Of a DNA stretch of 64,000 nucleotides, positions 41,629 through 59,153 are shown one piece after another. Below the pieces are notes generated by a model. It saw nothing but the letters and a program-made list of their open reading frames with translations, did no database searches and was not told the DNA's origin. The stretch lies in NCBI GenBank assembly GCA_946557785.1, contig CAMNTH010000007.1, positions 1-64,000 of the forward strand, written 5' to 3'. Each line of letters opens with the position of its first letter. The stretch's first letter is position 1. This DNA comes from an uncultured Blautia sp. (GTDB lineage Bacteria > Bacillota > Clostridia > Lachnospirales > Lachnospiraceae). The position numbers and the translations under genes are program-made.

Positions 41629-43368
41629 TTATCTTATATTTATCTGATAAGGAAGAAAAAATGTTACTGTGGTTCCCTGTAAGGGGGCTGAGGTAACCGT
41701 TACGGAAGCATCACTGCCGTAAAACAGCTTCAGCCGCTCTTTTGTATTGGAAAGGCCGATGGAGTGGGAGAGCTTTTGGCTGGTGCTTCTTTGACAGTAA
41801 ATCTGCCCAAGCTCCTTTTCCGTCATGCCGGAGCCGTTGTCTGCTATGGAACAGACGAGGGAAGCCTCCTGGCGGCGGATGCAGATGGAGATACAGGGAT
41901 TGGGAAGATTTCCTTTAAAACCATGCAGAATAGAATTCTCTATCACAGGCTGAAACAGCATTTTAAGGATAAGACATTCATAAAGGGAATCCTCCTCAAG
42001 GCAGATATCCAGGGCAATTTTCTGAGGGATATGAAGCTGCATTACCTGAAGGTATTCACGGATGTATTCCAGTTCCTCCCGGATGGTAAAATGGTCGTTG
42101 CCGGATTTTAATGTTTTTTCCAGCAGGCGGCCAAAGGAGGAAATTGTATTGGCAACAGGTTCGTCATGATTAAGGATGGCCATCCACTTAATATTATTTA
42201 AGGTATTAAACATCAGATGGGGGTTGATCTGGGACTGAAGCACCATGTAACGGAAACGCTCCTTTTCATTTTCCTGTTCCAGAAGCTTGCGCTGCTGTGC
42301 CTGGGTTCTTTCAAATAAAATGGAGAGCTGTTCAGCCATATGATTAAAGCTGGTTCCAAGCTCCGTAAGTTCATCCGTAGCATTGGAATGAAAACGGCTG
42401 GAAAAGTCTCCTCTTTCTACATTTACCATCAGCTCCTTTAATGTGCGGATTGGCTTTAGGAAGGAGTGGAGTATCAGAAGAATAGCCCCGATAAAGCATA
42501 GGATCACCGCAAGGTCCCCAAGCATAAAAAGAGAGCTGTAGGAAGAATCCCGATACAGGTCTGCCTTTCGGATCAGGGAGGTAAAGGTCCACTTATTATA
42601 TAAAGGATATGATAAGACCAGATAATCTTCTTTATGTGAAATGTAGTCCTGGTAGGATTCTCCAATAAGGGATTTGTCCTTTGCTGAAATAATTTCGCCA
42701 TCCTGGCTGCACAATAGATTGATGCTGTCTGTATACAGTGTGGAGGACTGAAGGATGCGGAAAAGTTTTTCTTCATCAACGATCAGCAGTGCCTGACCCA
42801 GGTACTGCTTTTTGTAATTGCGGATAGTTTTGCCGATACAAAGTACAATATCATCGGATTCCTTGCCAAGATTTCGCATAGAAGTAGAAAAATAGGTGTA
42901 ATTCAGATTGTTTTCTTTTATGGCATCCAAAAATCCTGCCGTAACCTCACTATCCCATACAGTGTGATCTTTGATATAGTAGGTACTGTATGCAGTCTGC
43001 CTGGTATCCAGGATCAGAAAGTCTACTGTGCAGTAGAAGACATATTTTTGGAACTGCGCCGTAATGCCGTCAATGGCGATCCTGGTGCGAAGCTCATCAT
43101 TGAAGGTTTCCTTCGGAGAACTAAGGGCTTCATAGAGAGAGGAATCCGTGGAAAGCAGATTAAGTGTAACGCCCATTTCCCGAAGAAGCGTCTTAAGGGT
43201 ATTGTCTACATTAATGACTGCATTTTCAAAGGCAAAATTTGTATTTTCCAGAATCCGGTTTTCCATATGAAGCTGGAGCAAAAGATTTAACCCCATGACC
43301 GGCAGGATAACAAAACATAAGATGCAGGCAGTGATTTTAATCTGAAGCCGGCTGAATGTTTTTTTCAT
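41629..43368 (-). CDS. YesM-type sensor histidine kinase
   Basis: 579 residues. Membrane segments about 10-30 and 285-305 flank an extracellular dCache-like sensor. HAMP follows ('FLKPIRTLKELMVNVERGDFSSRF'), then H-box 'QSQINPHLMFNTLNNIKWM', N-box 'QPVIENSILHGF' and G-box 'IADNGSGM'. It lies directly after the response-regulator gene on the same strand (2-nt gap). The pair is divergent from the importer/pentulose operon at 45148, its likely target. Confidence 0.94.
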   Translation of the reverse strand: MKKTFSRLQIKITACILCFVILPVMGLNLLLQLHMENRILENTNFAFENAVINVDNTLKTLLREMGVTLNLLSTDSSLYEALSSPKETFNDELRTRIAIDGITAQFQKYVFYCTVDFLILDTRQTAYSTYYIKDHTVWDSEVTAGFLDAIKENNLNYTYFSTSMRNLGKESDDIVLCIGKTIRNYKKQYLGQALLIVDEEKLFRILQSSTLYTDSINLLCSQDGEIISAKDKSLIGESYQDYISHKEDYLVLSYPLYNKWTFTSLIRKADLYRDSSYSSLFMLGDLAVILCFIGAILLILHSFLKPIRTLKELMVNVERGDFSSRFHSNATDELTELGTSFNHMAEQLSILFERTQAQQRKLLEQENEKERFRYMVLQSQINPHLMFNTLNNIKWMAILNHDEPVANTISSFGRLLEKTLKSGNDHFTIREELEYIREYLQVMQLHIPQKIALDICLEEDSLYECLILKMLFQPVIENSILHGFKGNLPNPCISICIRRQEASLVCSIADNGSGMTEKELGQIYCQRSTSQKLSHSIGLSNTKERLKLFYGSDASVTVTSAPLQGTTVTFFLPYQINIR

Positions 43369-43370
43369 AC

Positions 43371-44894
43371 TCAGTTTCCTTTCTTGTACTGATTGGGAGA
43401 AAGCCCGGTGGCTTTTTTAAATACCTTGCTGAAATAGCCGGTATCATGGAATCCTGTCAGTTCCGCAATTTCTGAAACAGTGTAGTTTTGCCCTGATTCC
43501 AAAAGGCTGCGGGCTTTGGCAATTCTATACTGGATCAGATAATCGCTGAAGGTCTGGCCTGTTTCTTTTTTGAAAAGATAGCTGAGATGATTTTTGCTGA
43601 TGTTGATATACCTAGCAACGTCAGACAGGGAAATATCATTGCTGTAATGCTCTTCAATAAAATTCGCAGCAGCCAGTACATCATTTCGAATATTCTTATA
43701 CCCTTTGGACTGAAGGAGGGCCATATAGGTCTGGATAAAGGAATCAAGGTAGGACTTAAGCTCCAAAAAGGAACGCATCTGGGCGATATCCTGATAAAAA
43801 TAAAGATATTCCTCCGCCATGTCCGCCAGGGTCAATTTCTTTTCTTTTAAATAATTTCCAAGTGTATTAATAAGATCAATGGTATCCAGCTTGACGATTC
43901 TGGGATCCGGCTTTTCCTTCAGTACCCAGAGCGTATAGGCGGCAATCTGCTCAGTGAGGGACTGGAAATGCTGGTGGCGGATAATCTCACCAATATTGCG
44001 GTAAAAGGCTGCTCCGATCCTGGTATCCTCATTGTGGTAAAGCTTTTCCAAATTAGAGTAAATGCCAATACAGCCGGAATTATCATAAAACAATGCATCC
44101 ATGGATTTTTGAGATTCGTGGAGGGCCTTATTCAGAGCCATGGTACATGGACAGCGGCTGCTGATCCCAACCAAAATGGAAACATCCATACAAGAGGAAA
44201 GAAAGCGGTGAAGCTTTTCCATGGATTCTGCAAGGGAGTGCTCCAAAGCTTCGGATTCGGAGGTTTTGGAAAATCCTGTGTATAGAAGAATAGGCTCGGA
44301 ACCATTGACAAGGCAGGGGTGCAGACAACTGACGGGATGTTCCATAAGCCACTGGGTGATAAGCAGCAGCAAAAGACTGCGCACCTCTTTTGTAGAAGAA
44401 GCACCGTAAAAAGTAATTGCGTAATACTCATCAGATACCATTTCTTTTGGAGCCTTGAGGCTGTCAAGTTCAGGAACTTCAAGCAAAGCCGGAGCAGCCT
44501 GGGAGCTGGCCCGCTCTGCCAGGATTTTTTTCGCCACATCGCCTAATACGCTGCATATTTCTTCCGGTGTGGAGGAAAGCTTCAGTATATAATCCCGCAC
44601 GCCTTTTTTAAAAGCGTCCCGAACATAGCTGTAGTCCTCATGGCAGCTTAAAATAATAATATTGGTTCTGATATTTTGCTCCTCCAGCTTCTGTATAAGG
44701 TCCATTCCTGTCATGCCGGGCATCAGAAGATCCAGAAGGATAATATCAGGCATATGCTTCCGGATCATTTCCATTGCCTCCAGGCCATTGGAGGCTTCCC
44801 CCACCAGTTCCAGATCCATTTCCTCCCAGCGGATACAGCTGATCAGTCCCATTCGGACAATAAATTCGTCATCTACAACTAACACTTTTAACAT
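43371..44894 (-). CDS. YesN-type response regulator with AraC output domain
   Basis: 507 residues from ATG at 44894 (MLKVLVVDDEFIVRMGL). Receiver with Asp55 in 'IILLDLLMPGMTG'; in place of the usual Lys-Pro after the beta-5 strand it has 'ILKLSS'. The middle region is unassigned, and a C-terminal AraC HTH pair ('ISLSDVARYINISKNHLSYLFKKETG', 'YTVSEIAELTGFHDTGYFSKVFKKATGLSPNQY') completes it. An upstream ATG at 44957 adds 21 non-receiver residues. First gene of the two-component unit. Confidence 0.93.
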   Translation of the reverse strand: MLKVLVVDDEFIVRMGLISCIRWEEMDLELVGEASNGLEAMEMIRKHMPDIILLDLLMPGMTGMDLIQKLEEQNIRTNIIILSCHEDYSYVRDAFKKGVRDYILKLSSTPEEICSVLGDVAKKILAERASSQAAPALLEVPELDSLKAPKEMVSDEYYAITFYGASSTKEVRSLLLLLITQWLMEHPVSCLHPCLVNGSEPILLYTGFSKTSESEALEHSLAESMEKLHRFLSSCMDVSILVGISSRCPCTMALNKALHESQKSMDALFYDNSGCIGIYSNLEKLYHNEDTRIGAAFYRNIGEIIRHQHFQSLTEQIAAYTLWVLKEKPDPRIVKLDTIDLINTLGNYLKEKKLTLADMAEEYLYFYQDIAQMRSFLELKSYLDSFIQTYMALLQSKGYKNIRNDVLAAANFIEEHYSNDISLSDVARYINISKNHLSYLFKKETGQTFSDYLIQYRIAKARSLLESGQNYTVSEIAELTGFHDTGYFSKVFKKATGLSPNQYKKGN

Positions 44895-45147
44895 AGTTTG
44901 TCCTTCTTTCGTAGTAACAGTGTGCAAAAAAAAGGTTTTACTAAAGTGATTATGCATTATTTACAGCTAATTTGCAAATGGTGGAAGAAAATGCATATTA
45001 TTTTACCTTTTTTCGGATTATATTTCTGCCTTATGGAAGAAATCGTATTTTTTTACAAATAATACAGGACTGTGTTCATTGTGAAAGAAAGGGGTTTATG
45101 GCAGAATAGAGTCACAAAATAAATGATAAAGAAACGGAGGAACGAAA

Positions 45148-46398
45148 ATGAAAAAAAGAATGAAGAAAATGCTGAGCCTGGTTTTAAGCGCATGTATGAC
45201 GCTTCCGGTATTTTCGGCAGCAGCAGTTTACGCAGAGCCAAAGGAGACCATCCGTGTTTGGTACTGGGAAGATAATGACGGCTCTTATGCAGATGCATAT
45301 TCCACATGGAGCGAGCAGTATCCTGATGCAGAACTGGTACTGGAAGCGGTTCCGTGGAACAGCTACCACGATATGCTCATTGCAGCGGCTGCATCAGGAG
45401 ACCTGCCGGATGTTTATAAGATTCAGCCAACCTGGATTCCGGAGCTGAGAAGCCTTGGTGCTATTGCAGAGCTTGATGATTATATTGATTCCTGGGACGG
45501 AAAGGATACTATTCCAATGAGTATGTGGGAATCTGCCAAAGCAGGCCAGGAAGCTACCTTTGCATGGCCCCACAGCCTGGTAGTTCTTTATTTGTACTGC
45601 AGAAAATCCTATTTTGAGGAAGCAGGAGTAGAATATCCAAAAACAATGGATGAATTCTATAAAGCATGTGAAGCTCTCACAAAAGATACGGACGGAGACG
45701 GAGCAACGGATGTTTACGGATTCAGCATGAGAGGCGCCAGAGGCGGACACTTTATGTGGGCAGGCCTGACGCTGAATAACGGCGGCGGCTTCTTCGGGGA
45801 TGACGGAAGCGTTGTGCTGAATACACCGGAAATGGTGGAAGCAAACCAGAAATATCTTGATATTTACCTGAATGGATGGGCGCCAAAAACAGCACCTACT
45901 GACGGATATACGGAAATTGTACAGAATTTCGAGAGCGGCGTAACAGGAATGCTGATTCACCATCTGAATTCCGCAAATGAGATTACGGATGTTCTGGGGG
46001 AGGACGTTGATGTAGTACCTCTTCCGGAAGGCGCTGCAGGAAGATATCTCCCAAGCGAACCTTGTCATTGGGCGGTTTCCGCAAACAGTGAAAATACAGA
46101 AACAGCAATTAACTTCCTGAAATATGCATCAGAGGAAGAGACCCATAAGGCTCTTTGCAAAAATGCAGGCCTAGTACCATTCATTACACCGGTAACTGAG
46201 GATCCGGAATTTACAGAAAATAAATTCTGTGCTGCTTCTATGGAATATCTGGATGATGTGCAGATCTTCCCGGTCTGCAATACATGGGGCGACTGGTCCG
46301 AAACTGTTTGGCCGCAGACAATGCAGCGTGCCATGATGGGCGAGATCTCCAGCGAGGAAATGATCCAGATTCTTGCAGACAATCTTGCAGAGGAATAA
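45148..46398 (+). CDS. ABC sugar-binding protein (family 1)
   Basis: 416 residues. Signal peptide about 1-30; it includes LSAC, which could be a lipobox, while cleavage after VYA is also possible. The mature part 'TIRVWYWEDNDGSYADAYSTWSEQYPDAELVLEAVPWNSYHDM' and 'GDLPDVYKIQPTWIPELRSLGAIAELDDYI' are standard for carbohydrate-binding proteins. ACGGAGGA precedes the ATG. First gene of a ten-gene catabolic locus; the YesN/YesM pair diverges from it. Confidence 0.94.
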   Translation: MKKRMKKMLSLVLSACMTLPVFSAAAVYAEPKETIRVWYWEDNDGSYADAYSTWSEQYPDAELVLEAVPWNSYHDMLIAAAASGDLPDVYKIQPTWIPELRSLGAIAELDDYIDSWDGKDTIPMSMWESAKAGQEATFAWPHSLVVLYLYCRKSYFEEAGVEYPKTMDEFYKACEALTKDTDGDGATDVYGFSMRGARGGHFMWAGLTLNNGGGFFGDDGSVVLNTPEMVEANQKYLDIYLNGWAPKTAPTDGYTEIVQNFESGVTGMLIHHLNSANEITDVLGEDVDVVPLPEGAAGRYLPSEPCHWAVSANSENTETAINFLKYASEEETHKALCKNAGLVPFITPVTEDPEFTENKFCAASMEYLDDVQIFPVCNTWGDWSETVWPQTMQRAMMGEISSEEMIQILADNLAEE

Positions 46399-46425
46399 AA
46401 GAACCGAATGTGTAATAGCTAAAAA

Positions 46426-46461
46426 CGCCGGGCCAATGAAGGAACAGTCATTAGCCCGGCG
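46426..46461 (+). terminator. Intra-operon hairpin
   Basis: CGCCGGGC ... GCCCGGCG, with extra pairing CAATGA / TCATT toward the loop, between the binding protein and first permease genes. No T-run follows; probably an mRNA stabiliser. Confidence 0.75.
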
Positions 46462-46488
46462 GAATTACTCTTAAGGAGGAAGCAGTAC

Positions 46489-47385
46489 ATGGAAAGAAAG
46501 AAAAAAATCCAGTGGCAGCCTGTGCTCCTGCTGGCACCGGCAATCCTGATCGTAGTCCTGATCATCGGATATCCTGTGGCAAGGGCAATCGTCCTCAGCC
46601 TGTACAAATATGATATGACGAACCTGCAGAATGTGAAATTCATCGGCTTGCAGAATTATACAGACATTTTTACGAAAGATGATGCTTTCTGGCCGGCGCT
46701 GAAAAATACAGTGTTATGGGTGGGAGTAACAGTAACCGCACAGCTTCTTCTTTCCTTGCTGCTGGCCAATATTTTAAACAAATCCTTCCGCGGCCGGGGA
46801 ATCGTAAGGTCTGTGGTACTTATTCCGTGGGTGACGCCCTGCGTTCTGATTTCATTGATGTGGGCATGGATATTTAACGGAAACTATGGAGTTATGAATG
46901 AGATTTTAAAGAGCCTTCATCTTATTAAAGAAAATGTGGCGTGGATCGCCCAGCCTAATACTGCACTTTGGGTTCAGATCATGGCAATGATCTGGCAGGG
47001 AATTCCTTTTTTTACAATTATGATCCTGGCAGCTATGCAGTCCGTACCCAGGGAACTGTATGAATCAGCCAGTGTGGACGGAGCGTCTTCCATGAAGCAG
47101 TATTTTTATATTACCATTCCGGGAATTGCATCCACCATCGTATCTACAGTTATGATCAGGCTGATATGGGTGTTTAATAACGTGGACATTGTTTATACCA
47201 TGACAGGCGGAGGGCCTGGCTACAGCTCCCTTACTTTGTCCGTATACACTTATCTGCAGGCGCAGAAATCCATGAAATTCGGATACGGCAGTGCGGTAGC
47301 CATTATCGGAGCGATCCTGATGTCCATTGTGATCTTTATTTATCTTCGCATTACCAGAGAGCAGGGAGGAATGATTGACAAATGA
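46489..47385 (+). CDS. ABC sugar permease, MalF type
   Basis: 298 residues, six predicted helices. 'QPVLLLAPAILIVVLIIGYPVARAIVLSLYKYD' at the start, EAA loop 'ELYESASVDGASSMKQYFYITIPGIAS' in pattern, then 'NNVDIVYTMTGGGPGYSSLTLSVYTYLQA'. AAGGAGGAAG precedes the ATG. It overlaps the next permease gene by 4 nt. Confidence 0.95.
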   Translation: MERKKKIQWQPVLLLAPAILIVVLIIGYPVARAIVLSLYKYDMTNLQNVKFIGLQNYTDIFTKDDAFWPALKNTVLWVGVTVTAQLLLSLLLANILNKSFRGRGIVRSVVLIPWVTPCVLISLMWAWIFNGNYGVMNEILKSLHLIKENVAWIAQPNTALWVQIMAMIWQGIPFFTIMILAAMQSVPRELYESASVDGASSMKQYFYITIPGIASTIVSTVMIRLIWVFNNVDIVYTMTGGGPGYSSLTLSVYTYLQAQKSMKFGYGSAVAIIGAILMSIVIFIYLRITREQGGMIDK

Positions 47386-48206
47386 AAGAGAAAAAAAGTA
47401 TAGGAACCTTTTATATACCCATGATATTTTTCCTTGTTACCGTATTATTTCCCTTTGCCTGGACATTCCTTACATCTTTAAAGAAAAAGAATGAAATGTT
47501 TGCACAGGAATTTCGTTTCCTTCCCGCTGCACCTACACTGGACAGCTATCGGGAATTATTTGAGAAAACAGATTTTTTCAGCAATATGTGGAACAGCCTT
47601 GTAGTATCCTTTGCCACAGTGCTGATCGCAGGCATAGTGTCCTTTATGGCAGGCTATGCGCTTTCCAGATACCGTTTCCGCATGAGGAATGCCCTTATGT
47701 ATTTTTTCCTTCTGCTGTATCTGGTGCCCAGCACATTGCTTTTGATACCTCTGTATACCATTTTTAATAAGATGGGGATCTTGCATACGCAGCTTTGCCT
47801 GATCGTGGCTTACAGTACTTATTCCATCCCGTATTCGGTTTGGCTGACAACGGGATTTATTAACCAGGTGCCCTTTGAACTGGAGGAAGCTGCAGCCCTG
47901 GACGGCTGCAGCCTGGCCCAAAGGATGTTCCGCATCGTGCTTCCTCTTTTGCGTCCTGCTCTGGTGGCATCCTGCAGCTTCATCTTTATCACCTCCTGGA
48001 ATGAGTATACCTATGCAAATATGTTTACAAACAAAGCATCCAGAACGGTGACCGTGGCATTATCTAATTTTATGTCCCAGTACAATATTCGGTGGGATTT
48101 GATCACGGCCGGTGGGATTGTGGTAGTAATTCCGGTTGTTATTATGTTTGTGTTCGTACAGAAGGATTTGATTGCCGGACTGACTGCCGGCGGAGTAAAG
48201 GGCTGA
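47382..48206 (+). CDS. ABC sugar permease, MalG type
   Basis: 274 residues, six predicted helices; 'FELEEAAALDGCSLAQRMFRIVLPLLRPA' EAA loop pattern and the C-terminal 'QKDLIAGLTAGGVKG'. ATG overlaps the stop of the preceding permease gene (ATGA), consistent with coupling. Confidence 0.95.
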   Translation: MKEKKSIGTFYIPMIFFLVTVLFPFAWTFLTSLKKKNEMFAQEFRFLPAAPTLDSYRELFEKTDFFSNMWNSLVVSFATVLIAGIVSFMAGYALSRYRFRMRNALMYFFLLLYLVPSTLLLIPLYTIFNKMGILHTQLCLIVAYSTYSIPYSVWLTTGFINQVPFELEEAAALDGCSLAQRMFRIVLPLLRPALVASCSFIFITSWNEYTYANMFTNKASRTVTVALSNFMSQYNIRWDLITAGGIVVVIPVVIMFVFVQKDLIAGLTAGGVKG

Positions 48207-48232
48207 GAAAGATCTAAAAGAAGGGAGCATTT

Positions 48233-48583
48233 ATGGAAGAATTAAAAAAGGTTTGTTATGTGGTGACAAAAACGGATAATGTGGCAACAGCCATGGCGGA
48301 TATCGAAGCGGGAGAGGTAAAGCTTACCGGAGACGCACCGGAGAAAAGGGCGGGGGTTTTGGCAGTGGAAGCTATTCCTTTTGGGCACAAAATGGCGCTT
48401 TGTGCTCTTCATCCAGGAGACAGGATCATTAAATACGGAGCGCCAATAGGCATTGTTACGGAGGAAATCCGGGAAGGCGAACATGTACATATGCACAATA
48501 TGAAAAGCGCCTATGATTTTCGTTCCGCCCAGCTGGATCCCATGACAGCACATGCCAAAGACATTGAATATAAGACATATTAA
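48233..48583 (+). CDS. UxaA-family dehydratase, small (SAF) subunit
   Basis: 116 residues equal to the N-terminal domain of altronate/galactarate dehydratases: 'IPFGHKMALCALHPGDRIIKYGAPIGIVTEEIREGEHVHMHNM' is the SAF block with the VHxHN end. In UxaA and GarD this is fused to the large domain; here it is a separate gene, with the large part at 48608. AAGGGAGC precedes the ATG. Alternative reading: SuyA of sulfolactate sulfo-lyase, a split homologue. The sugar-kinase and aldolase neighbours favour a sugar acid. Confidence 0.85.
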   Translation: MEELKKVCYVVTKTDNVATAMADIEAGEVKLTGDAPEKRAGVLAVEAIPFGHKMALCALHPGDRIIKYGAPIGIVTEEIREGEHVHMHNMKSAYDFRSAQLDPMTAHAKDIEYKTY

Positions 48584-48607
48584 GGATAAGGGAGGTGCAG
48601 GTTTGAA

Positions 48608-49837
48608 ATGAAAGAGGAGTTACTGTGTCAGGGATATCTGAGAAAGGATGGTTCCAAAGGAATCCGGAATAAAGTCCTGGTTATTTTTACGGTGGAGTGC
48701 AGCAAGCATGTATGCAGGAAAATTGCAGATTATTTTCAGGGTCTTGGAGAGGACGTGGAAGCCATTGGGTCTCATTCCTGTCTTCATAATCAGGTAAATA
48801 TCCGAAGACTTTTGAAATATTGTACTCATCCCAATGTGGGAGGGGTTGTGGCTATCGGGCATGGATGTGAATATACCTATCCGGATCTTCTTGCAGAGGC
48901 TGCGGAAAAATCAGGAAGGGAGGCTGCCTGGTTTTATCAGCAGGAAGCAGGGGGAACCCAGAAAAGTATTGTAAAGGGAATGGCCATTGTACGGGAAATG
49001 CTGGATAAACTGAAGGAAACGCCCAGGGTTCCTATGTATCTTTCCGATCTTGTGGTTGGAGGAGAGTGCGGAGGATCAGATTTTACATCCGGACTTGCAG
49101 GAAATGCCCTGGTAGGCAGTGTGTTTGACTATGTAGTGGATCATGGAGGAACGGCAGTTTTTGAGGAATTGAGCGAGGGTATCGGGCTGAAGGAATACCT
49201 TATGGAGCGCGGGGCTAATGAAAAGGTAAAAGTCGATATTGCCAGGGCTTATGACAAAACCGTGGACTTCTGTGCGGCATATGGACAGTTTTCCATTGCG
49301 CCGGGAAATATGGACGGCGGACTGACTACGATTGAAGAAAAAAGCATGGGCGCTACGGTGAAAAGCGGAAGCCGCCAGATTCAGAGCGTTTTGAAGGTAG
49401 CACAGACTCCGGTATGCAAAGGCCTCCATCTTCTGGATGTAATTCCGGATGAGAAACTGGAGCCGGCTCATTTTATTGCTGCGGATCCTTCGGATATGCT
49501 GGAGCTGGTTGCAGCAGGATGCCATGTGGTATTTCTGGTCACAGGCAGGGGACATGTTGTAGGAACACCGGTAAGCCCGGTAATCAAAGTAACGGGAAAT
49601 CCCAGAACCTATGAAAGAATGTCCGATGATATTGATTTCTGCGCAGCGCCTCTGCTTACCGGAGAGGAGTCCAGGGAAGCTATAACCGGACGGATGATGG
49701 AGCTTTTAAAGAGAGTCTGCGGCGGCGAACCAAGCAATGCAGAGCGTATGGGACACAGGGAAGGAATTCTGTATTTTAATTTCCAGAATCCAACGGAAGT
49801 TCCTGCGTGCTGGGATTTCGGCAAAGGAGGTCACTGA
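48608..49837 (+). CDS. UxaA-family dehydratase, large subunit
   Basis: 409 residues. Family blocks: 'QGYLRKDGSKGIRNKVLVIFTVECSKHVCRKIA', 'GVVAIGHGCEYT', 'LVVGGECGGSDFTSGLAGNALVGSVFDYVVDHGGTAVFEE', 'SIAPGNMDGGLTTIEEKSMG' and 'FLVTGRGHVVGTPVSPVIKVTGNP'. Forms the iron-dependent dehydratase with the small subunit, turning a sugar acid (D-altronate-like) into a 2-keto-3-deoxy acid. GGGAGGTG lies 12 nt before the ATG. One nt separates its stop from the aldolase start. Substrate cannot be fixed from sequence; SuyB is the alternative homologue. Confidence 0.85.
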   Translation: MKEELLCQGYLRKDGSKGIRNKVLVIFTVECSKHVCRKIADYFQGLGEDVEAIGSHSCLHNQVNIRRLLKYCTHPNVGGVVAIGHGCEYTYPDLLAEAAEKSGREAAWFYQQEAGGTQKSIVKGMAIVREMLDKLKETPRVPMYLSDLVVGGECGGSDFTSGLAGNALVGSVFDYVVDHGGTAVFEELSEGIGLKEYLMERGANEKVKVDIARAYDKTVDFCAAYGQFSIAPGNMDGGLTTIEEKSMGATVKSGSRQIQSVLKVAQTPVCKGLHLLDVIPDEKLEPAHFIAADPSDMLELVAAGCHVVFLVTGRGHVVGTPVSPVIKVTGNPRTYERMSDDIDFCAAPLLTGEESREAITGRMMELLKRVCGGEPSNAERMGHREGILYFNFQNPTEVPACWDFGKGGH

Positions 49838-49838
49838 T

Positions 49839-50750
49839 TTGGAAAAAGAAATACAGGGAATCATTCCTCCTTTGCTGACTCCGCTGGATAGAGAGGGAGA
49901 TGTGGACGTTCCGGCCTTGAAGAGGCTGATAGAGCACTGTATAAGAGGAGGCGTAAGCGGAATCTTTGTGCTTGGTTCCTGTGGAGAAGGGACTGTGCTT
50001 TCCAGGGAACAGAGACGATGTGCTGCAGAAAAAGCGCTGGAGATAACAGGAGAGCGCATTCCGGTTTTAGTAGGAGTTCTGGAAACCTCTGCAGCAGGGA
50101 TCACGGAAGAGATTAAGGAATATGAGGAAATGGGAGCGGAGTATTTTGTGGCTGCGGCGCCATATTATTTACCCCCCGGAAGTCAGGAGGAGATTCTGGA
50201 ACATTTCCGCTACATTACAGAGCATATGCATGGAAAGCTGATTATTTATAATATTCCCCCATATACAAATTCAGACATTTTGCCAACGACTATGGAAAGA
50301 CTTTTGGAAATGCCCAAGGTAACTGCCATTAAGGATAGTACAGGAAACTGGGCATTGTTCCAGAAAATCCTGTTTGCAGAAAAGAAGGGAAGCCTGCTGA
50401 GCGGGAACGAGGATCTTTGCGGAGCTGCAATGCTTTTGGGAGCAGATGGCTGCGTGCCCTGCCTTGCAAACATTTATCCCGGGTTTTATGTGGATATGTT
50501 GGGGTATGGAAGAGAGAAAAATGTGGATAAGATACTGGAATATCAGAGAGCCATTGTGGAAATGAAGGAGGTTTTCCAATATGGCAGGAGCTGGATCGCA
50601 GTAGTGAAATATTTATGCGCAAGAAAAGGGTTGATTTTGCCGTATGTGGGCAAAACCCTTCCGGAGCTTACAGAGGGTGAAAAAAATGCCATAGAGGAAT
50701 ACTTAAAAGATCATGAATCCATGTATGAAAACAGGAGGAATCACCTTTAA
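49839..50750 (+). CDS. DapA/NanA-family pyruvate-dependent aldolase
   Basis: 303-residue TIM barrel. 'GIIPPLLTPLDREGDVDVPALKRLIEH' and 'GIFVLGSCGEGTVLSREQR' open it; the catalytic Tyr137 ('IIYNIPPYT') and Schiff-base Lys165 ('VTAIKDSTGNW') are in place. The family holds dihydrodipicolinate synthases, N-acetylneuraminate lyases and 2-keto-3-deoxy sugar-acid aldolases. Next to a sugar-acid dehydratase the last role is most likely: cleaving the keto-deoxy acid to pyruvate and an aldehyde. TTG start with AAAGGAGG 9 nt upstream, inside the previous gene's end. Confidence 0.85.
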   Translation: MEKEIQGIIPPLLTPLDREGDVDVPALKRLIEHCIRGGVSGIFVLGSCGEGTVLSREQRRCAAEKALEITGERIPVLVGVLETSAAGITEEIKEYEEMGAEYFVAAAPYYLPPGSQEEILEHFRYITEHMHGKLIIYNIPPYTNSDILPTTMERLLEMPKVTAIKDSTGNWALFQKILFAEKKGSLLSGNEDLCGAAMLLGADGCVPCLANIYPGFYVDMLGYGREKNVDKILEYQRAIVEMKEVFQYGRSWIAVVKYLCARKGLILPYVGKTLPELTEGEKNAIEEYLKDHESMYENRRNHL

Positions 50751-50763
50751 GGAGGAAGTATAG

Positions 50764-52065
50764 ATGACAGAAAAAGAATTGATCATAAAAGCAGGCAAGG
50801 ATTTGGAGGAAAGGCTTGAAGAAGCAAAAAAAACAGGAAATCTGGTGGTAAAAGATGCAGTGGAGGATGAAAGGACTATCCGGGAGACATTTCAAAAGGG
50901 ACAGGGAATCTTCCGCCTGTTTCCTGCATTTGTTCCCAGGAGATTTGGCAAGGCGGGCCGCAGGCTGAAGCTGCACCCGGATGATTATTTTGCATTTGGA
51001 ATGGCAAGAGGCTCTATTACGGAAAGATGGTTTGCTTCTACCATTGCGGCGCAGAATGGGGAAACTGCTAAGGCAGACGAGGGTATGTCCTATGTATGCG
51101 TGGATTATGACAGCCAGGAGAAATTCTCTCTTAGGAATGCAGTGAAGGTTCTGGGAGAAGAGCTGGTGGGAAAAGAGCTGATGGAAAAGTATAACGGCTG
51201 GCCTATGTATTCCAAGTTTTTTGACAATGAGAATCCATTGTTCCATCATCTGCATCTGACCTTTGAGGATGCACAACGGGTAGGGAAGCTTGGAAAACCG
51301 GAATGCTATTATTTCCCCAAACAGCTTAATAATTATTCCGGAGAATCGGATTATACTTACTTTGGATTTGATCCGGATGTGGATCCGGAAGAAATTAAAG
51401 AGAGGATTCGTAAATTTGCAGATGATGATACCAGGATTACAGATTTGTCCAGAGCATACAGGATTGAACTTGGAACAGGATGGTATACGCCTGCGGGTGT
51501 GATCCATGCACCTGCATCTGTACTGACTTATGAGCCGCAGTGGAATTCGGATGTAAACTCTGTATACGAAAACATTGTATCCGGTGAGGTCTATCCGCCG
51601 GAGATGCTGGACGAGGAGCTGCCGGAGGGATGCAAGGATGCGGAGGACGTATTTAAGCTTCTGGATTGGGAGAAGAATGTAGACCCTCATTACAGAAAGC
51701 ACTATTTCCGCAGGCCCATTATAGAGGCGGAAACAGGAGCATATACACAAAAATGGATTACTTATGCCAATCCTTATATTGCGGCAAAAGAGCTGACGGT
51801 AAATCCGGGACAAAGCGTAACTATTTGTGACGGAGCAGCATATGGCTGTATTTTTGTACAGGGCCATGGTACATTCGGCGTATATGATTGTGAGGCTCCT
51901 ACACTTCTTCATTTTGGACAGCAGAGCTCGGATGAATTTTTTGTATCGGAGAAGGCAGCAGTTCAAGGTGTGACTATTACAAATACAAGTAAAGTGGAGC
52001 CGCTGGTTGTCCTGAAACATTTCGGTCCAAACTGCCCGGGAGTTCCGGAGGAAATGACGGAGTAG
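50764..52065 (+). CDS. Cupin-fold sugar isomerase-like protein (type I PMI-like)
   Basis: 433 residues. Helical N-terminal part (about 1-70), then blocks that resemble type I mannose-6-phosphate isomerases: 'GRRLKLHPDDYFAFGMARGSITERWFAST', 'HHLHLTFEDAQRVGKLGKPECYYFPKQLN' (metal His/Glu), 'RIELGTGWYTPAGVIHAPASVLTYEPQ'. A second cupin follows at about 330-425. Such proteins isomerise aldoses and ketoses, some unphosphorylated. Standing before an L-xylulose kinase and UlaE, it may make L-xylulose from an aldopentose such as L-lyxose or L-xylose. That is inference. AAGGAGGAAG precedes the ATG. Confidence 0.65.
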   Translation: MTEKELIIKAGKDLEERLEEAKKTGNLVVKDAVEDERTIRETFQKGQGIFRLFPAFVPRRFGKAGRRLKLHPDDYFAFGMARGSITERWFASTIAAQNGETAKADEGMSYVCVDYDSQEKFSLRNAVKVLGEELVGKELMEKYNGWPMYSKFFDNENPLFHHLHLTFEDAQRVGKLGKPECYYFPKQLNNYSGESDYTYFGFDPDVDPEEIKERIRKFADDDTRITDLSRAYRIELGTGWYTPAGVIHAPASVLTYEPQWNSDVNSVYENIVSGEVYPPEMLDEELPEGCKDAEDVFKLLDWEKNVDPHYRKHYFRRPIIEAETGAYTQKWITYANPYIAAKELTVNPGQSVTICDGAAYGCIFVQGHGTFGVYDCEAPTLLHFGQQSSDEFFVSEKAAVQGVTITNTSKVEPLVVLKHFGPNCPGVPEEMTE

Positions 52066-52073
52066 GAAAAGGT

Positions 52074-53588
52074 ATGAGATATTTACTTGGAATTGATAAT
52101 GGAGGGACTTTTTCCAAGGCAGCGATTTTCGATGAGGATGGAAATCAGATTTCCGTTGCGAGCCTTCCGACAGAGACGATTACCCCCAAGCCAGGTTATA
52201 CAGAAAAGAATCTGGAGGAGCTGTGGGAGGTAAATGCCAGAGCAATCCGCAGATCTATTGAAAAAAGCGGTATTAACCCAAGGGACATTGCCGGAGTCTC
52301 TTTTTCCGGAGCGGGAAAGGGGCTGTACATGGTAGGATATGACGGAAGACCTTCCTATAATGGTATTATGTCCACAGATACAAGGGCCTGGGCGCAGGTA
52401 GAAAAGTGGTACAAAGACGGAACGAACAAAAAGGTTTATGAAAGGACTTTCCAGGAAATCCTTGCAGTGCAGCCGGTAAGCCTTCTGGCGTGGTTTCAGG
52501 AAAATAAGCCGGAGATACTGCAAAGGACAAAATATATTTTTGCAGTGAAGGATTATATCCGATACAGACTTACAGGCGAGGCTTACAGTGAGTATACGGA
52601 CTGCTCAGGAGGAAATCTGGTAAATATGATCACAGGACAGCATGACAGAGAACTGATGGAGCTGTACGGACTTGAAGACTGTTATGAAAAGCTGCCGCCC
52701 TTGAGGCATTCTGCAGAAATCTGCGGATATATAACAAAAGAGGCAAGTGAGAAGACTCTGCTTCCCCAGGGAATTCCTGTGGCTGCAGGAATGTTTGACG
52801 TGAACGCCTGCGGAATTGCGTCCGGTCTTTGTGATGAGGAGCAGATGTGTATGATCGCAGGTACCTGGAGTATTAATGAATTTATCGGAAAGGCTCCGAT
52901 AACTAATGGTACGGTTGCACTGAATTCCATGTTCTGCATTCCCGGGTACTTTTTGATCGAGGAGAGCAGTCCCACTTCTGCAGGAAATATGGAATGGTTT
53001 ATTCACAGCCTGATGAAGGATGAACTGGAAGAGGCAGAAAAAGAAGGCAGATTGGTTTATGACCTTACAAATGAGTGGGTGGCTTCTATTGAACCCCAGG
53101 ATGATCATATGATTTTCCTGCCGTTTCTCAATGGATCCAATGAAAATCCACTGGCAAAGGGTACTTTTGTAGGAATGACTGCCTACCATAATAAGAAGCA
53201 TATGCTCCGGGCTGTTTATGAAGGAATTGTATTTTCCCATGTCACTCATGTAAGGAAGCTTTTAAGAAACAGGGAAATTCCAAGGAGTATCCGACTTTCG
53301 GGAGGAGCAGCAAATTCAGAGGTGTGGGTACAGATTTTTGCGGATGCACTGCAGATTCCCATTGATGTGGTGGGGGATAAGGAGCTGGGAGCTCAGGGTG
53401 CAGCTATGGCTGCAGGAATAGCCGCAGGGATTTATAAGGATTACCCGGATGCAGCGGCAAGAACCGTGACTATAACCGGAACCGTTTATCCTAGACCGGA
53501 ATATAAAAAAATTTATGAGGAAAAATATGCCGCTTACCGTGCTGTGATCGACGGATTAAACGGGGCGTGGCCCCATTTTAAAAATTAG
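52074..53588 (+). CDS. FGGY-family L-xylulose/sugar kinase (LyxK-like)
   Basis: 504 residues. ATPase-fold start 'MRYLLGIDNGGTFSKAAIFDEDGNQI', substrate region 'VSFSGAGKGLYMVGYDGRP', 'AGMFDVNACGIASGLCDEEQMCMIAGTWSINEF' and C-terminal 'RLSGGAANSEVWVQIFADALQIPIDVVGDKELGAQGAAMAAGIAAG'. The sequence is of the LyxK/YiaP kind, which phosphorylates L-xylulose to L-xylulose 5-phosphate, the substrate of the UlaE-type epimerase next door. AGGAAAAGG precedes the ATG, 8 nt after the isomerase-like gene. Confidence 0.88.
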   Translation: MRYLLGIDNGGTFSKAAIFDEDGNQISVASLPTETITPKPGYTEKNLEELWEVNARAIRRSIEKSGINPRDIAGVSFSGAGKGLYMVGYDGRPSYNGIMSTDTRAWAQVEKWYKDGTNKKVYERTFQEILAVQPVSLLAWFQENKPEILQRTKYIFAVKDYIRYRLTGEAYSEYTDCSGGNLVNMITGQHDRELMELYGLEDCYEKLPPLRHSAEICGYITKEASEKTLLPQGIPVAAGMFDVNACGIASGLCDEEQMCMIAGTWSINEFIGKAPITNGTVALNSMFCIPGYFLIEESSPTSAGNMEWFIHSLMKDELEEAEKEGRLVYDLTNEWVASIEPQDDHMIFLPFLNGSNENPLAKGTFVGMTAYHNKKHMLRAVYEGIVFSHVTHVRKLLRNREIPRSIRLSGGAANSEVWVQIFADALQIPIDVVGDKELGAQGAAMAAGIAAGIYKDYPDAAARTVTITGTVYPRPEYKKIYEEKYAAYRAVIDGLNGAWPHFKN

Positions 53589-53650
53589 GGCATGTCCTTA
53601 AGGAAAGGTAAGATTTTGAACATGCTTTGACGGAGGATTTGAGAAACAGT

Positions 53651-54529
53651 ATGAAAGCATATACATTAGGGGTATATGAAAAAGCAATGCCGGGAGAGCT
53701 GACCTGGAGGGAACGGCTGGAAGCTGCAAAAGATGCAGGCTATGATTTCCTGGAAATCAGTATAGATGAGACAAATGCAAGGCTTGCCCGTCTGGACTGG
53801 ACAAAGGAAGAGAGGCTGGAGCTGATAAATACAATGTATGATACAGGTGTTCCTATCCGAACCATGTGCCTGAGCGGACATCGGAAATATCCTATTGGCA
53901 GCAGCGATGAGGCAACCTGTGCAATGGGGATGGAGATTATGGAAAAGGCCATTCTTCTTGCTGCGGATCTTGGAATCCGGCTTATCCAGCTTGCCGGATA
54001 TGATGTATATTATGAGGAATCTACTTCAGAAACAGTGGAGCGTTTTGGGGAAAATCTGAAAAAATGTGAGCAGATGGCAGCTGCAGCAGGCGTTCTTCTT
54101 GGCTTTGAAACAATGGAAACGGAATTTATGAATACGGTGGGAAAAGCCATGGTTTTTGTGAACCGCCTGAATTCTCCATATCTGGGTATATATCCGGATA
54201 TGGGGAATATTACTAATGCGGCAGCAGCTTACGGGACGGATGTGCTGGAAGATATTCGAAAGGGCAGGGGACATCTGGATGCAGTGCATTTGAAGGAAAC
54301 GGTTCCGGGGGTGTTCCGGGAGGTGGCATTTGGAACAGGCCATGTGGATTTCCCGGCTGTGATAGAAGAAGCCTGGAGGGCAGGTGTGCGCAGATACGTT
54401 ACGGAGTTCTGGTATACGGGAAATCCCCGATGGAGAGATGAAATGAGGCAGGCAGCCAGGATGATGCGGGAGATTTTGAATACCCAGGAGAGAAAAATGG
54501 AAGAGGATACAGTTTGCATATATAACTGA
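53651..54529 (+). CDS. ulaE: L-ribulose-5-phosphate 3-epimerase (UlaE/SgaU)
   Basis: 292-residue TIM barrel, close in pattern to E. coli UlaE: 'LGVYEKAMPGELTWRERLEAAKDAGYDFLEISIDET', 'MCLSGHRKYPIGS', 'IRLIQLAGYDVYYEE', 'LGFETMETEFMN', 'IYPDMGN', 'GHLDAVHLKET'. It converts L-xylulose 5-phosphate to L-ribulose 5-phosphate. Two starts are possible: ATG at 53651 (14 nt after GGAGG) or TTG at 53627; the ATG fits the family N-terminus. It completes the kinase to AraD route. Confidence 0.95.
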   Translation: MKAYTLGVYEKAMPGELTWRERLEAAKDAGYDFLEISIDETNARLARLDWTKEERLELINTMYDTGVPIRTMCLSGHRKYPIGSSDEATCAMGMEIMEKAILLAADLGIRLIQLAGYDVYYEESTSETVERFGENLKKCEQMAAAAGVLLGFETMETEFMNTVGKAMVFVNRLNSPYLGIYPDMGNITNAAAAYGTDVLEDIRKGRGHLDAVHLKETVPGVFREVAFGTGHVDFPAVIEEAWRAGVRRYVTEFWYTGNPRWRDEMRQAARMMREILNTQERKMEEDTVCIYN

Positions 54530-54541
54530 ATTTAATTGATT

Positions 54542-54592
54542 ACTTGTAAATACAAGTTGGATTTTGAGGATACAAGTGTTATAGTATATTAT
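54542..54592 (+). promoter_or_regulatory. araD promoter with AraR-like operators
   Basis: TTGAGG (54564-54569), 17 nt, TATTAT (54587-54592). Upstream lies the palindrome ACTTGTAAATACAAGT (54542-54557), close to the Bacillus AraR operator type (TTGTAC.GTACAA). A half-site ATACAAGT (54570-54577) lies inside the spacer. Two sites about 28 nt apart would suit cooperative repression by an arabinose-responsive AraR. Confidence 0.65.
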
Positions 54593-54636
54593 AAGAGAAA
54601 GATACTGTAACCAATATCAAAAAGGAGAGAAAGAGT

Positions 54637-55329
54637 ATGCTTGAGAAATTAAAAGAAGAAGTATATAAGGCAAATATGGATCTTCCCCAATATGGTCTTG
54701 TGACTTTTACCTGGGGAAATGTAAGCGGTATTGACAGAGAGAAAGGACTTTTTGTCATTAAGCCAAGCGGCGTGGATTACGATAAGCTGACCCCGGAGGA
54801 TATGGTAGTGGTAGACCTTCAGGGGAATAAGGTAGAGGGAAAATACAATCCTTCCTCCGATACAGCCACCCACGTAGTGTTGTATAATGCATTTCCGAAT
54901 GTGGGCGGAATCGTTCATACGCATTCCTCCTGGGCAACAAGCTGGGCACAGGCAGGACGCAGCATTCCCTGCTATGGAACTACTCATGCAGACTATATTT
55001 ACGGCGAAGTTCCCTGTGTAAGAAACCTCACAAAGGATGAGATTGAGGATGCTTATGAAAAAAATACAGGAATCCTCATTGCCGACTATTTTAAAGACAA
55101 GGATTATGAGGCGGTACCGGCCGTACTTTGCAAGAACCACGGACCTTTTACCTGGGGCAAGGATGCTCATGAAGCAGTACATAATGCAGTCGTGCTGGAA
55201 GAGGTGGCCAAGATGGCTACCCGCTGCGAACTGATCAACCCGGAAGTAAAACCGGCTCCACAGGAACTGCAGGATAAGCATTATTACAGAAAACATGGCG
55301 CCAATGCTTATTATGGGCAGGGAAAATAA
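54637..55329 (+). CDS. araD: L-ribulose-5-phosphate 4-epimerase
   Basis: 230-residue class II aldolase-fold enzyme making D-xylulose 5-phosphate for the pentose phosphate pathway. Seen: '[14 protein letters not shown]', '[22 protein letters not shown]', zinc ligands '[17 protein letters not shown]' and '[13 protein letters not shown]', and '[14 protein letters not shown]' at the end. AAAGGAGAGA precedes the ATG. Own promoter with an AraR-like operator, so it may also serve arabinose breakdown together with genes elsewhere (no araA or araB here). Confidence 0.97.
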
Positions 55330-58269: not shown

Positions 58270-59153
58270 TCTCCGTCACTTACGACAGCACGCTCTATAT
58301 CTATGTCCGGAACGCCCAGAACGATATCGTCGCCCTGGTTGACTCCAAAGGAAATGAGGTGGTAAGATATACTTATGACAGCTGGGGCAAGGCAAAGATC
58401 GCCGGAAGCATGGCTGAGACCCTCGGAAAGAGGAACCCGTTCCGTTACAGAGGCTACTACTATGATACTGAGACAGGGATGTACTACCTTAAGAGCAGGT
58501 ATTATGATCCGGAATTGAGAAGGTTTATTAATGCGGATACAGTAATCAGCGGTCCGCAGGCTGGCGCTAACCTGTTTGCTTATTGTGAAAACAATCCGGT
58601 GAATATGGCGGATTATGATGGGCATGCGGCATTATCTATTCCTGCTTCCGGTGGTTGGGCATTGGGAAGTATAGTAAAAACTATAGCAAAAGCTATAGTT
58701 GGAGTTGCTGCTACAGTGATAACAGGGACATTTGCTGGTAGTACCAGAAGTCTTTCATATAATGCTCGAAGTTATAGCCCAAGAGATGTAAGATCAGAAA
58801 ATACAAAGCAAAAAACGGGGTATGATGATATTCTATCAGGCATTGCTGGCAAATTTGGAAATTTTAAGTGCGTAGAGGCATCTGATGCTATGCTGATTGC
58901 ACTTAAATCCAAAAGACGGCATGGTAATATTGTTACCTTGAAGGTTGAAGATGAGAACGAAAAACTTATATCTACTTATATTTGGTCTGAGAGCCGGGGA
59001 ATGAATATCAGCGAAAATGGTATTCATAAGGGGATTGAATACAAAGGAAAGATATACTGTAATGTGCACCCATTAGGTTTACCCGAGAAGGCATGGAAGG
59101 CTGACTTTATGGCACCAGTAGGAGTTTTGCAACTACATAGAATTCCATTTTGA
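58227..59153 (+). pseudogene. RHS core end plus papain-fold-like toxin tip, out of frame with its shell
   Basis: From about 58240 the frame reads 'YDSAGNVISVTYDSTLYIYVRNAQNDIVALVD', then the RHS core signature 'RNPFRYRGYYYDTETGMYYLKSRYYDPELRRFINADT' (about residues 70-105) and 'GANLFAYCENNPVN', the usual boundary to variable toxin tips. The tip (about 135-308) has Cys in 'FKCVEASDAM' and His in 'NGIHKGIEYKGKIYCNVHPLG', resembling papain-fold toxin 2 (Tox-PL-2) domains. It has no ribosome site of its own at 58227. Lower GC after 58600, typical of swapped tips. Confidence 0.75.

Follow-up and report, generated by a model that had tools for sequence, protein, structure and literature searches.

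We analyzed a 64,000-nucleotide stretch of DNA from an uncultured Blautia sp. (contig CAMNTH010000007.1, positions 1 to 64,000; hereafter the window, contig C7 of a 3.17-Mb assembly with 47 contigs and 95.8% completeness) and focused on ten genes at 45148-55329. These genes are probably explained by the fusion of two sugar-catabolic modules into an apparent single, presumably co-transcribed unit, in which a cupin protein (CUP) would act as an isomerase feeding an L-xylulose pathway. In module A, a sugar acid would be imported, dehydrated to a 2-keto-3-deoxy acid, and cleaved to pyruvate and a short aldehyde. In module B, CUP would convert an aldopentose (most likely L-lyxose, possibly L-xylose) into L-xylulose, which the kinase would phosphorylate to L-xylulose 5-phosphate; UlaE would then form L-ribulose 5-phosphate, and AraD would form D-xylulose 5-phosphate. 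The pathway is known; what would be new is the isomerase family, in which the main value of the finding lies, and the lineage-specific operon fusion. The locus comprised the following features.

45148..46398, plus strand: extracellular sugar-binding protein, CUT1 type (PF01547, E 1.7e-35)
46489..47385, plus strand: ABC permease 1 (PF00528, E 1.8e-22)
47382..48206, plus strand: ABC permease 2 (PF00528, E 1e-21)
48233..48583, plus strand: small subunit of a split UxaA/GarD-type sugar-acid dehydratase, SAF domain (PF08666, E 2.2e-6)
48608..49837, plus strand: large subunit of the split UxaA/GarD-type dehydratase (PF20629, E 1.1e-71; PF04295, E 1.4e-29)
49830..50750, plus strand: DHDPS/NAL-family aldolase with a GTG start, putatively acting on a 2-keto-3-deoxy acid (PF00701, E 3.5e-51)
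50747..50763, no strand: presumed deletion junction, from which the window aligns to the CUP1 leader of relatives
50764..52065, plus strand: CUP, a ManA-fold cupin and proposed aldose-ketose isomerase (predicted fold; invariant H162, H164, E180, and H248)
52074..53588, plus strand: FGGY kinase, LyxK type (PF00370/PF02782)
53589..53646, no strand: site of a GFO/IDH oxidoreductase gene in relatives, empty in the window (locus alignment)
53651..54529, plus strand: UlaE-type L-xylulose-5-phosphate 3-epimerase (TIGR00542, PDB 3cqh)
54637..55329, plus strand: AraD-type L-ribulose-5-phosphate 4-epimerase (NF006047, NF009625)

The open reading frame (ORF) call revealed ten intact frames on the plus strand, separated by short gaps or overlapping, as a preliminary description of this DNA had claimed. 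Searches of Pfam and NCBIfam (E 1e-3) assigned families to nine of the ten products, and these agreed with the families stated in that description. The exception was CUP, a protein of 433 residues that matched neither collection.

A profile of the CUP family (71 members, namely 70 of the 85 CUP rows of 370-450 residues and the window protein) retrieved the putative phosphomannose isomerase 1zx5 (E 2e-4). Below this match, the list mixed phosphomannose isomerases (E 0.015-0.04) with a 6-phospho-beta-galactosidase (0.0095), the latter evidently matched by chance. The sequence link between CUP and ManA is thus thin, and the predicted fold carries the case. The AlphaFold model of CUP had a predicted local distance difference test score of 95.6 and a predicted template modeling (TM) score of 0.93, and a Foldseek search of the PDB with this model returned phosphomannose isomerases as all of the top 17 matches, with target-normalized TM scores of 0.51-0.78. 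Bacillus subtilis ManA was matched at E 7.5e-19 with TM scores of 0.57 (query) and 0.77 (target); overall, the target-normalized scores were 0.76-0.77 for ManA 1qwr and 0.78 for 1zx5, and the query-normalized scores were 0.56-0.57. CUP exceeds 1qwr and 1zx5 by 118-133 residues, and the identity in the structural matches was 16-18%. The residues H162, H164, E180, and H248 were invariant in all 89 aligned CUP sequences and, by our reading of the profile alignment, fall on the metal-ligand columns of 1zx5; the Gln ligand usual in ManA reads as His in CUP and likewise in 1zx5. A study of Bacillus phosphomannose isomerase describes conserved metal-binding Gln, His, Glu, and His residues (PMC4718643). 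On the basis of the predicted model, we propose that CUP is a metal-dependent isomerase with a phosphomannose-isomerase fold and would belong to the ManA fold superfamily, though it matches no curated family model and is not classed here as a phosphomannose isomerase. The preliminary label of a cupin isomerase-like protein is consistent with both the modeled fold and the profile match to 1zx5. A plasmid collection searched for an annotated relative yielded a single match, a 'hypothetical protein' of 29.5% identity, and no such isomerase or locus was described in the accessible parts of the literature searched, a search that did not extend to subscription papers.

The enzymes encoded behind CUP point to L-xylulose. 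Among seven E. coli FGGY kinases, LyxK matched the window kinase best (330 bits; LsrK, 169; XylB, 116), suggesting an L-xylulose kinase of the LyxK type. The identities to the E. coli proteins were 34.5% for the kinase with LyxK, 48% for UlaE, and 59% for AraD with UlaF. UlaE passed TIGR00542 (305.4 bits, cut-off 272.15) and matched the solved UlaE 3cqh (E 4.8e-78), and AraD passed NF006047 (390 bits, cut-off 257) and NF009625 (373, cut-off 369) and fell 2.6 bits short of TIGR00760 (386.5, cut-off 389.1).

We then compared CUP across genomes. In a set of 98 related genomes, the window's own included, CUP was matched at E 1e-3 in 23, comprising 15 strong matches (E < 1e-130) and 8 short, weak matches of the ManA kind. 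Thirteen genomes carried CUP at ≥88% identity, and 11 of these held a second copy (CUP2) at 47-48%. A collection of species genomes contained at least 552 stretches encoding a CUP relative; we examined the best 80 of them, which lean toward near relatives and include many Blautia-type near-copies. The gene calls in these loci were ORF picks, which may miss genes in G+C-rich contigs, and the counts were repeated by tblastn. A kinase homologue was found in 41 of the 80 loci, UlaE in 32, either or both in 43, and AraD in 15; RbsD/FucU was found in 19, DUF4432 in 12, RhaA in 4, and the dehydratase in 2. Four of the 43 loci with kinase or UlaE depended solely on distant FGGY matches (27-30% identity), and the strict count, confined to the own clusters of the window kinase and UlaE, was 39. 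The CUP tree carried the labels of Bacillota, Spirochaetota, Bacteroidota, Planctomycetota, Verrucomicrobiota, Chloroflexota, Pseudomonadota, Actinomycetota, and one Chlamydiota bin, most of these genomes being metagenome bins, so that single phyla may be binning errors. CUP occurred with the LyxK/UlaE pair in Bacillota, Spirochaetota, Bacteroidota, and Pseudomonadota, and the CUP-kinase-UlaE(-AraD) unit was conserved far outside Blautia.

In E. coli, the corresponding steps are fed from 3-keto-L-gulonate through the decarboxylase UlaD/SgbH. UlaD was not found in the assembly, where the single match of the OMP-decarboxylase family was a frame of 309 residues that is taken for PyrF by its length; no second match pointed to a UlaD hidden elsewhere in this assembly of 95.8% completeness. 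Neither UlaD nor AraB was found in any of the 80 CUP loci (tblastn, E 1e-12). The preliminary description had proposed that UlaD is lacking and that an aldose isomerase supplies L-xylulose instead. The first claim was confirmed in the assembly and in the 80 loci, and the second is well supported in kind, because UlaD was found in neither and a ManA-fold protein precedes the LyxK-like kinase.

A psicose-epimerase-like TIM barrel was encoded in 13 of the 80 CUP loci (L053, L054, L056, L058, and nine more), directly adjoining CUP in 10 of the 13, and these loci contained neither kinase nor UlaE. The one representative tested was nearest to D-psicose 3-epimerase (91 bits, cut-off 300). The TIM barrel and the kinase/UlaE genes occurred together in no CUP locus (Fisher p 8e-5 by the strict and 1e-5 by the lax count, uncorrected for relatedness), and placing the TIM label on the CUP tree requires 7 changes, of which well-supported branches force 3. 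This distribution fits C3 epimerization of a free ketose in one CUP group and of a ketose phosphate in the other, the substrate of the epimerase being presumed. Several other genes were observed near CUP. Large proteins of 656-1146 residues without a Pfam match at the thresholds applied were found at L065 6351-9788 and 11203-13617, L069 11197-13497, L072 1415-3385, and L098 10357-13728; Pfam searches with large proteins adjoining CUP in other phyla gave no match, weak matches, or a DUF, and the Pfam-less proteins may be new glycosidases, which would then reveal where the sugar comes from. In six loci (L041, L065 16026-17258, L068, L075, L077, and L078), CUP has a protein of the URO-D family nearby, the family being assigned from one tested representative.

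To describe the partners of the kinase, we examined 27 kinase loci, 7 from near relatives and 20 from a draw of 391 genomes of the class, the latter being 20 of the 21 loci outside the window's own genome (G333 was left out). The 20 wider loci contained CUP in 4, an SDR gene in 7, and a RhaA homologue in 1 (L129), and one of the 7 near-relative loci also encoded a RhaA homologue (L113; Pfam E 7e-153). The RhaA gene adjoins the kinase and UlaE genes in L113 and the AraD, kinase, and UlaE genes in L129, and the RhaA of Dictyoglomus converts L-lyxose (PMC5167688). No UlaD was present among the genes picked in the 27 loci at E 1e-5. LyxK-like kinases were seen in Clostridia and adjoined CUP in Spirochaetota, Bacteroidota, and one betaproteobacterial bin; a survey of FGGY kinases reported LyxK only in a few groups of Gammaproteobacteria (PMC3245297). 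An odd pairing was observed in three of the four same-genus kinase loci without CUP (L108-L111), which adjoin an ABC-2 type system with ABC_transp_aux, DUF4340, or GldF/GldG-like proteins (L108 4817-9491, L109 11134-15777, and L111 5614-9284).

The relatives further indicated that the two modules are separable. The dehydratase occurred at ≥80% identity in 7 of the 98 genomes (own included), all with CUP. Of the 13 genomes with CUP at ≥88% (own included), 6 lacked it. Layouts were read for nine relatives. In L103, L104, and L106, an importer-SAF-dehydratase-aldolase block is followed by CUP2-RbsA-RbsC-RbsB-FucU-DUF4432-CUP1-kinase and onward; in L104, a frame of 925 residues separates the blocks and the locus ends within the kinase gene. 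L105 is cut after the start of RbsA, L115 stops after the aldolase, and only the second block is present in L117, L118, and L119. Six of the nine layouts thus represent two separated modules or the second module alone, and these layouts rule out a single conserved locus of seven enzymes. The window layout was matched only by L102 (genome G024), whose locus is 98-100% identical at the protein level, and the direct aldolase-CUP junction was confined to these two genomes. In relatives, module B has its own Rbs-type importer, mutarotase, DUF4432 protein, second CUP, and GFO/IDH oxidoreductase. CUP2 opens the Rbs-type importer unit at L103 7462-8682, L106 8766-9980, L104 10974-12188, and L117 7327-8541.

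Similarity to the CUP1 leader begins at the stop codon of the aldolase gene (50747-50750) for L104, L106, L118, and L119; for L103 and L117, it begins at the start codon of CUP (50764). The last 7 residues of the window aldolase extend past the protein end of its closest relative, in L103; the L104 aldolase has the same length but carries an unrelated tail, which makes the extra tail alone weak evidence for the junction. The GFO/IDH gene occupies the equivalent of 53589-53646 in five relatives (L103, L106, L117, L118, and L119) and had no match at E 1e-20 in the window's own genome, whose single RbsD/FucU gene lies on contig C3. A stretch with the second CUP, the Rbs-type importer, the mutarotase, and DUF4432 would have been removed by a deletion, so that CUP came to follow the aldolase immediately; comparison with L103 and L106 gives a deletion size of about 7 kb, and comparison with L104 gives 10 kb. 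A deletion explains the layout most simply, since 11 of the 13 genomes retain CUP2. These findings suggest that the locus apparently arose by a lineage-specific fusion of two catabolic operons, the direction of change being presumed. The preliminary description had envisaged one pathway in one locus for both branches, which was not upheld: module A has its own importer and two-component system, and 6 of the 13 genomes with close CUP do not carry it. Synteny, which it had named as a check, was conserved for the L-xylulose branch, but the fusion was restricted to the window genome and G024.

The two-component system lies divergent from the operon.

41629..43368, minus strand: sensor histidine kinase, YesM-like by reading (ORF call)
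43371..44957, minus strand: response regulator of 528 residues with receiver and AraC-type helix-turn-helix domains by reading (ORF call)

Homologues of the histidine kinase occupy the same place in relatives (64-66% identity in L104, L105, L106, and L115; 74% in L160), and homologues of the response regulator (51-71%) adjoin the importer in L103-L106 and L115. The system at 41629-44957 is a probable regulator of the importer/dehydratase module.

In module A, the GD_AH and SAF domains of the dehydratase are encoded by separate genes, and residues Cys 31, 58, 87, 154, 222, and 305 of the large subunit were kept in all five aligned sequences, down to a 47% homologue. The dehydratase failed the galactarate dehydratase model TIGR03248 (142.5, cut-off 730.85). 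The aldolase has the motifs IKDSTG at 167 and YNIP at 140, which we take to be catalytic. The nearest solved relatives of the binding protein bind acarbose/maltose (E 1e-20) and arabino-oligosaccharide (E 1.7e-16); naming its ligand or the aldolase substrate by the nearest solved structure was not decisive, the binder relatives being too distant. The window module encodes no uronate isomerase or dehydrogenase. UxaC was located elsewhere in G000, G024, and, partially, G009. G059 and G026 (each about 90% complete) also carry module A but yielded no UxaC, so supply of the acid by UxaC was rejected. Supply by the GFO/IDH oxidoreductase is unlikely, that gene being present without the dehydratase in relatives and absent in the window with it. 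With no isomerase or dehydrogenase gene of this kind in module A and no UxaC detected in G059 or G026, the sugar acid is probably imported as such. In the UxaA/GarD superfamily, several characterized members use acids whose C2-C4 carbons have the D-arabino arrangement, and D-idonate dehydratase and sulfolactate sulfo-lyase fall outside this pattern (PMC6336799). The wider dehydratase homologues (47-50%) occur with SAF, SDR, UxaC, RraA, and enolase-superfamily genes in L107, L161, and L162, and with SAF, SDR, and RraA in L163; in L164, SAF is present and the others are not nearby (genes in L161-L164 were labeled by BLAST against the L107 proteins). The association with UxaC, SDR, and RraA points to a hexonate. 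The recurring cluster, with a TRAP or ABC importer, spans L107 2239-12625, L161 1353-10252, and L162 4745-15977.

We next considered the substrate of CUP. The ketose kinase that follows CUP makes a free sugar the likely substrate, and the RbsD/FucU mutarotase near CUP in 19 of the 80 loci, 13 of which belong to the near clade of the window, favors an aldose in its free form. L-xylulose can be formed from two aldoses, and L-lyxose is the better fit by analogy: the substrates of ManA and RhaA have cis 2,3-hydroxyls in common, and L-lyxose has them as well. A Bacillus phosphomannose isomerase forms L-xylulose from L-lyxose, but at a low rate (2.0 units compared with 81,000 for mannose 6-phosphate; Table 1, PMC4718643). 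That CUP founds a family of natural L-lyxose (or L-xylose) isomerases in eight or nine phyla is a possibility that we put forward tentatively.

Several observations weigh against a CUP-fed, fused two-module locus. The Bacillus enzyme converts L-lyxose more slowly than it does L-ribose, D-ribose, L-talose, or L-mannose (PMC4718643). Kinase and UlaE of the window types are missing from 41 of the 80 CUP loci, some of them on short contigs, CUP2 has diverged within the family to 46-48% identity, and CUP may serve other sugars too. L-xylulose can also arise by other routes, as the SDR dehydrogenase in 7 of the 20 wider kinase loci indicates. The genome of L113 (G076) additionally has a 50% CUP on another contig, so RhaA is no simple replacement of CUP there, and G024, with the same fused locus, has a 77% GFO/IDH homologue on another contig. 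Finally, the window L-xylulose branch lacks the importer and mutarotase of its relatives and may use the module A importer or another, or be decaying; all of its frames are intact.

It is unlikely that CUP isomerizes another aldose or a sugar acid (L-ribose, a uronate, or a hexose) and that the kinase, UlaE, and AraD act on the matching ketose. The promiscuity of ManA-fold enzymes (PMC4718643), the 118-133 additional residues of CUP relative to its best structural matches, the lack of a characterized close relative among the records searched, and the 41 loci without kinase or UlaE of the window types would agree with this explanation. However, the LyxK, UlaE, and AraD types jointly point to L-xylulose, L-ribose would yield L-ribulose, for which a 3-epimerase is unneeded, and RhaA adjoins the kinase in two genomes.

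It is quite unlikely that both modules handle one compound class and that the fusion is functional, as in the breakdown of L-ascorbate, whose decay gives L-lyxonate and L-xylonate; C5 aldonates would then pass through the dehydratase and aldolase, and C5 sugars through CUP and the kinase. All seven genomes with the dehydratase at ≥80% have CUP, the modules lie side by side in L103-L106, the four loci with sufficient contigs, and loss of the Rbs importer left the module A importer as the only one in the window locus. By contrast, 6 of the 13 genomes with close CUP lack the dehydratase, each module has a separate importer in relatives, a AAAACGTTTT-type palindrome and spacer precede CUP2 by our reading, and the wider dehydratase homologues in three loci point to hexonates. 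No title or abstract beginning in the literature searched dealt with this decay of ascorbate to L-lyxonate and L-xylonate. That CUP is a chemical substitute for UlaD, a metal-dependent 3-keto acid decarboxylase giving L-xylulose, would suit its place in the locus, where UlaD/SgbH is expected, and the link of E. coli LyxK to 3-keto-L-gulonate (PMC6958661), but is very improbable given the ManA fold, the isomerase metal-site pattern, the mutarotase in 19 of 80 CUP loci, and the RhaA gene adjoining the kinase in two genomes.

Under the favored explanation, with CUP as the isomerase, the last three steps would resemble those of the E. coli yia/sgb and ula systems (LyxK, SgbU/UlaE, and SgbE/UlaF), whereas those systems use SgbH/UlaD and an isomerase would supply L-xylulose in the window locus. 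E. coli growth on L-lyxose uses RhaA. For this growth, a cryptic kinase gene must be activated, according to a reference title cited in PMC6958661. CUP shares the predicted fold and four metal-ligand positions with class I phosphomannose isomerase (1qwr and 1zx5) and differs from it in its length, its lack of a Pfam match, and the ketose kinase next to it. With regard to module A, the Campylobacter jejuni proteins Cj0482/Cj0483 represent a split UxaA. In the L-fucose locus of this species, the dehydratase Cj0483 followed by the aldolase Cj0481/DapA performs steps like those of module A, but the locus includes dehydrogenases and a hydrolase that the window locus lacks (PMC6946681). The D-arabinonate and D-altronate dehydratases (UxaA/GarD; PMC6336799, PMC12632266) belong to the same superfamily as the window enzyme, which is split over two genes. 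The UxaC-SDR-SAF-UXA-RraA clusters of other Firmicutes (L107, L161, and L162), which contain the nearest wider dehydratase homologues, have a uronate isomerase, an SDR, and an RraA-type aldolase; all three are missing from the window locus, whose genome has a UxaC elsewhere.

These findings offer a testable function for a large family that lacks a Pfam or NCBIfam model and predict that Lachnospiraceae, Treponema, Bacteroidales, and others feed on a rare sugar. In E. coli, the yia operon serves an unidentified carbohydrate that yields L-xylulose (PMC6958661), and a dedicated isomerase family would hint at what that carbohydrate is. If the proposal is true, CUP would be the missing natural first step of L-xylulose catabolism outside the ascorbate route, and these bacteria would meet L-lyxose or L-xylose often enough in their habitats for its use to be under selection. 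The locus also represents an apparent case of two catabolic units joined by deletion.

Several minor features of the locus were recorded. The aldolase most likely starts at GTG 49830, within the 3' end of the dehydratase gene, rather than at 49737, and UlaE most likely starts at ATG 53651, the first in-frame start, TTG 53627, being disfavored. The promoter-like and terminator-like sites of the region did not exceed chance (9 terminator-like sites compared with 8.8 expected), and one stem-loop was listed in the gap between the binding-protein gene and the first permease gene.

46426..46461, listed on the minus strand: G+C-rich stem-loop of 14 bp

Immediately 3' of AraD, the window contains RHS-repeat-like frames at 55582-59153, as judged by reading their translations.

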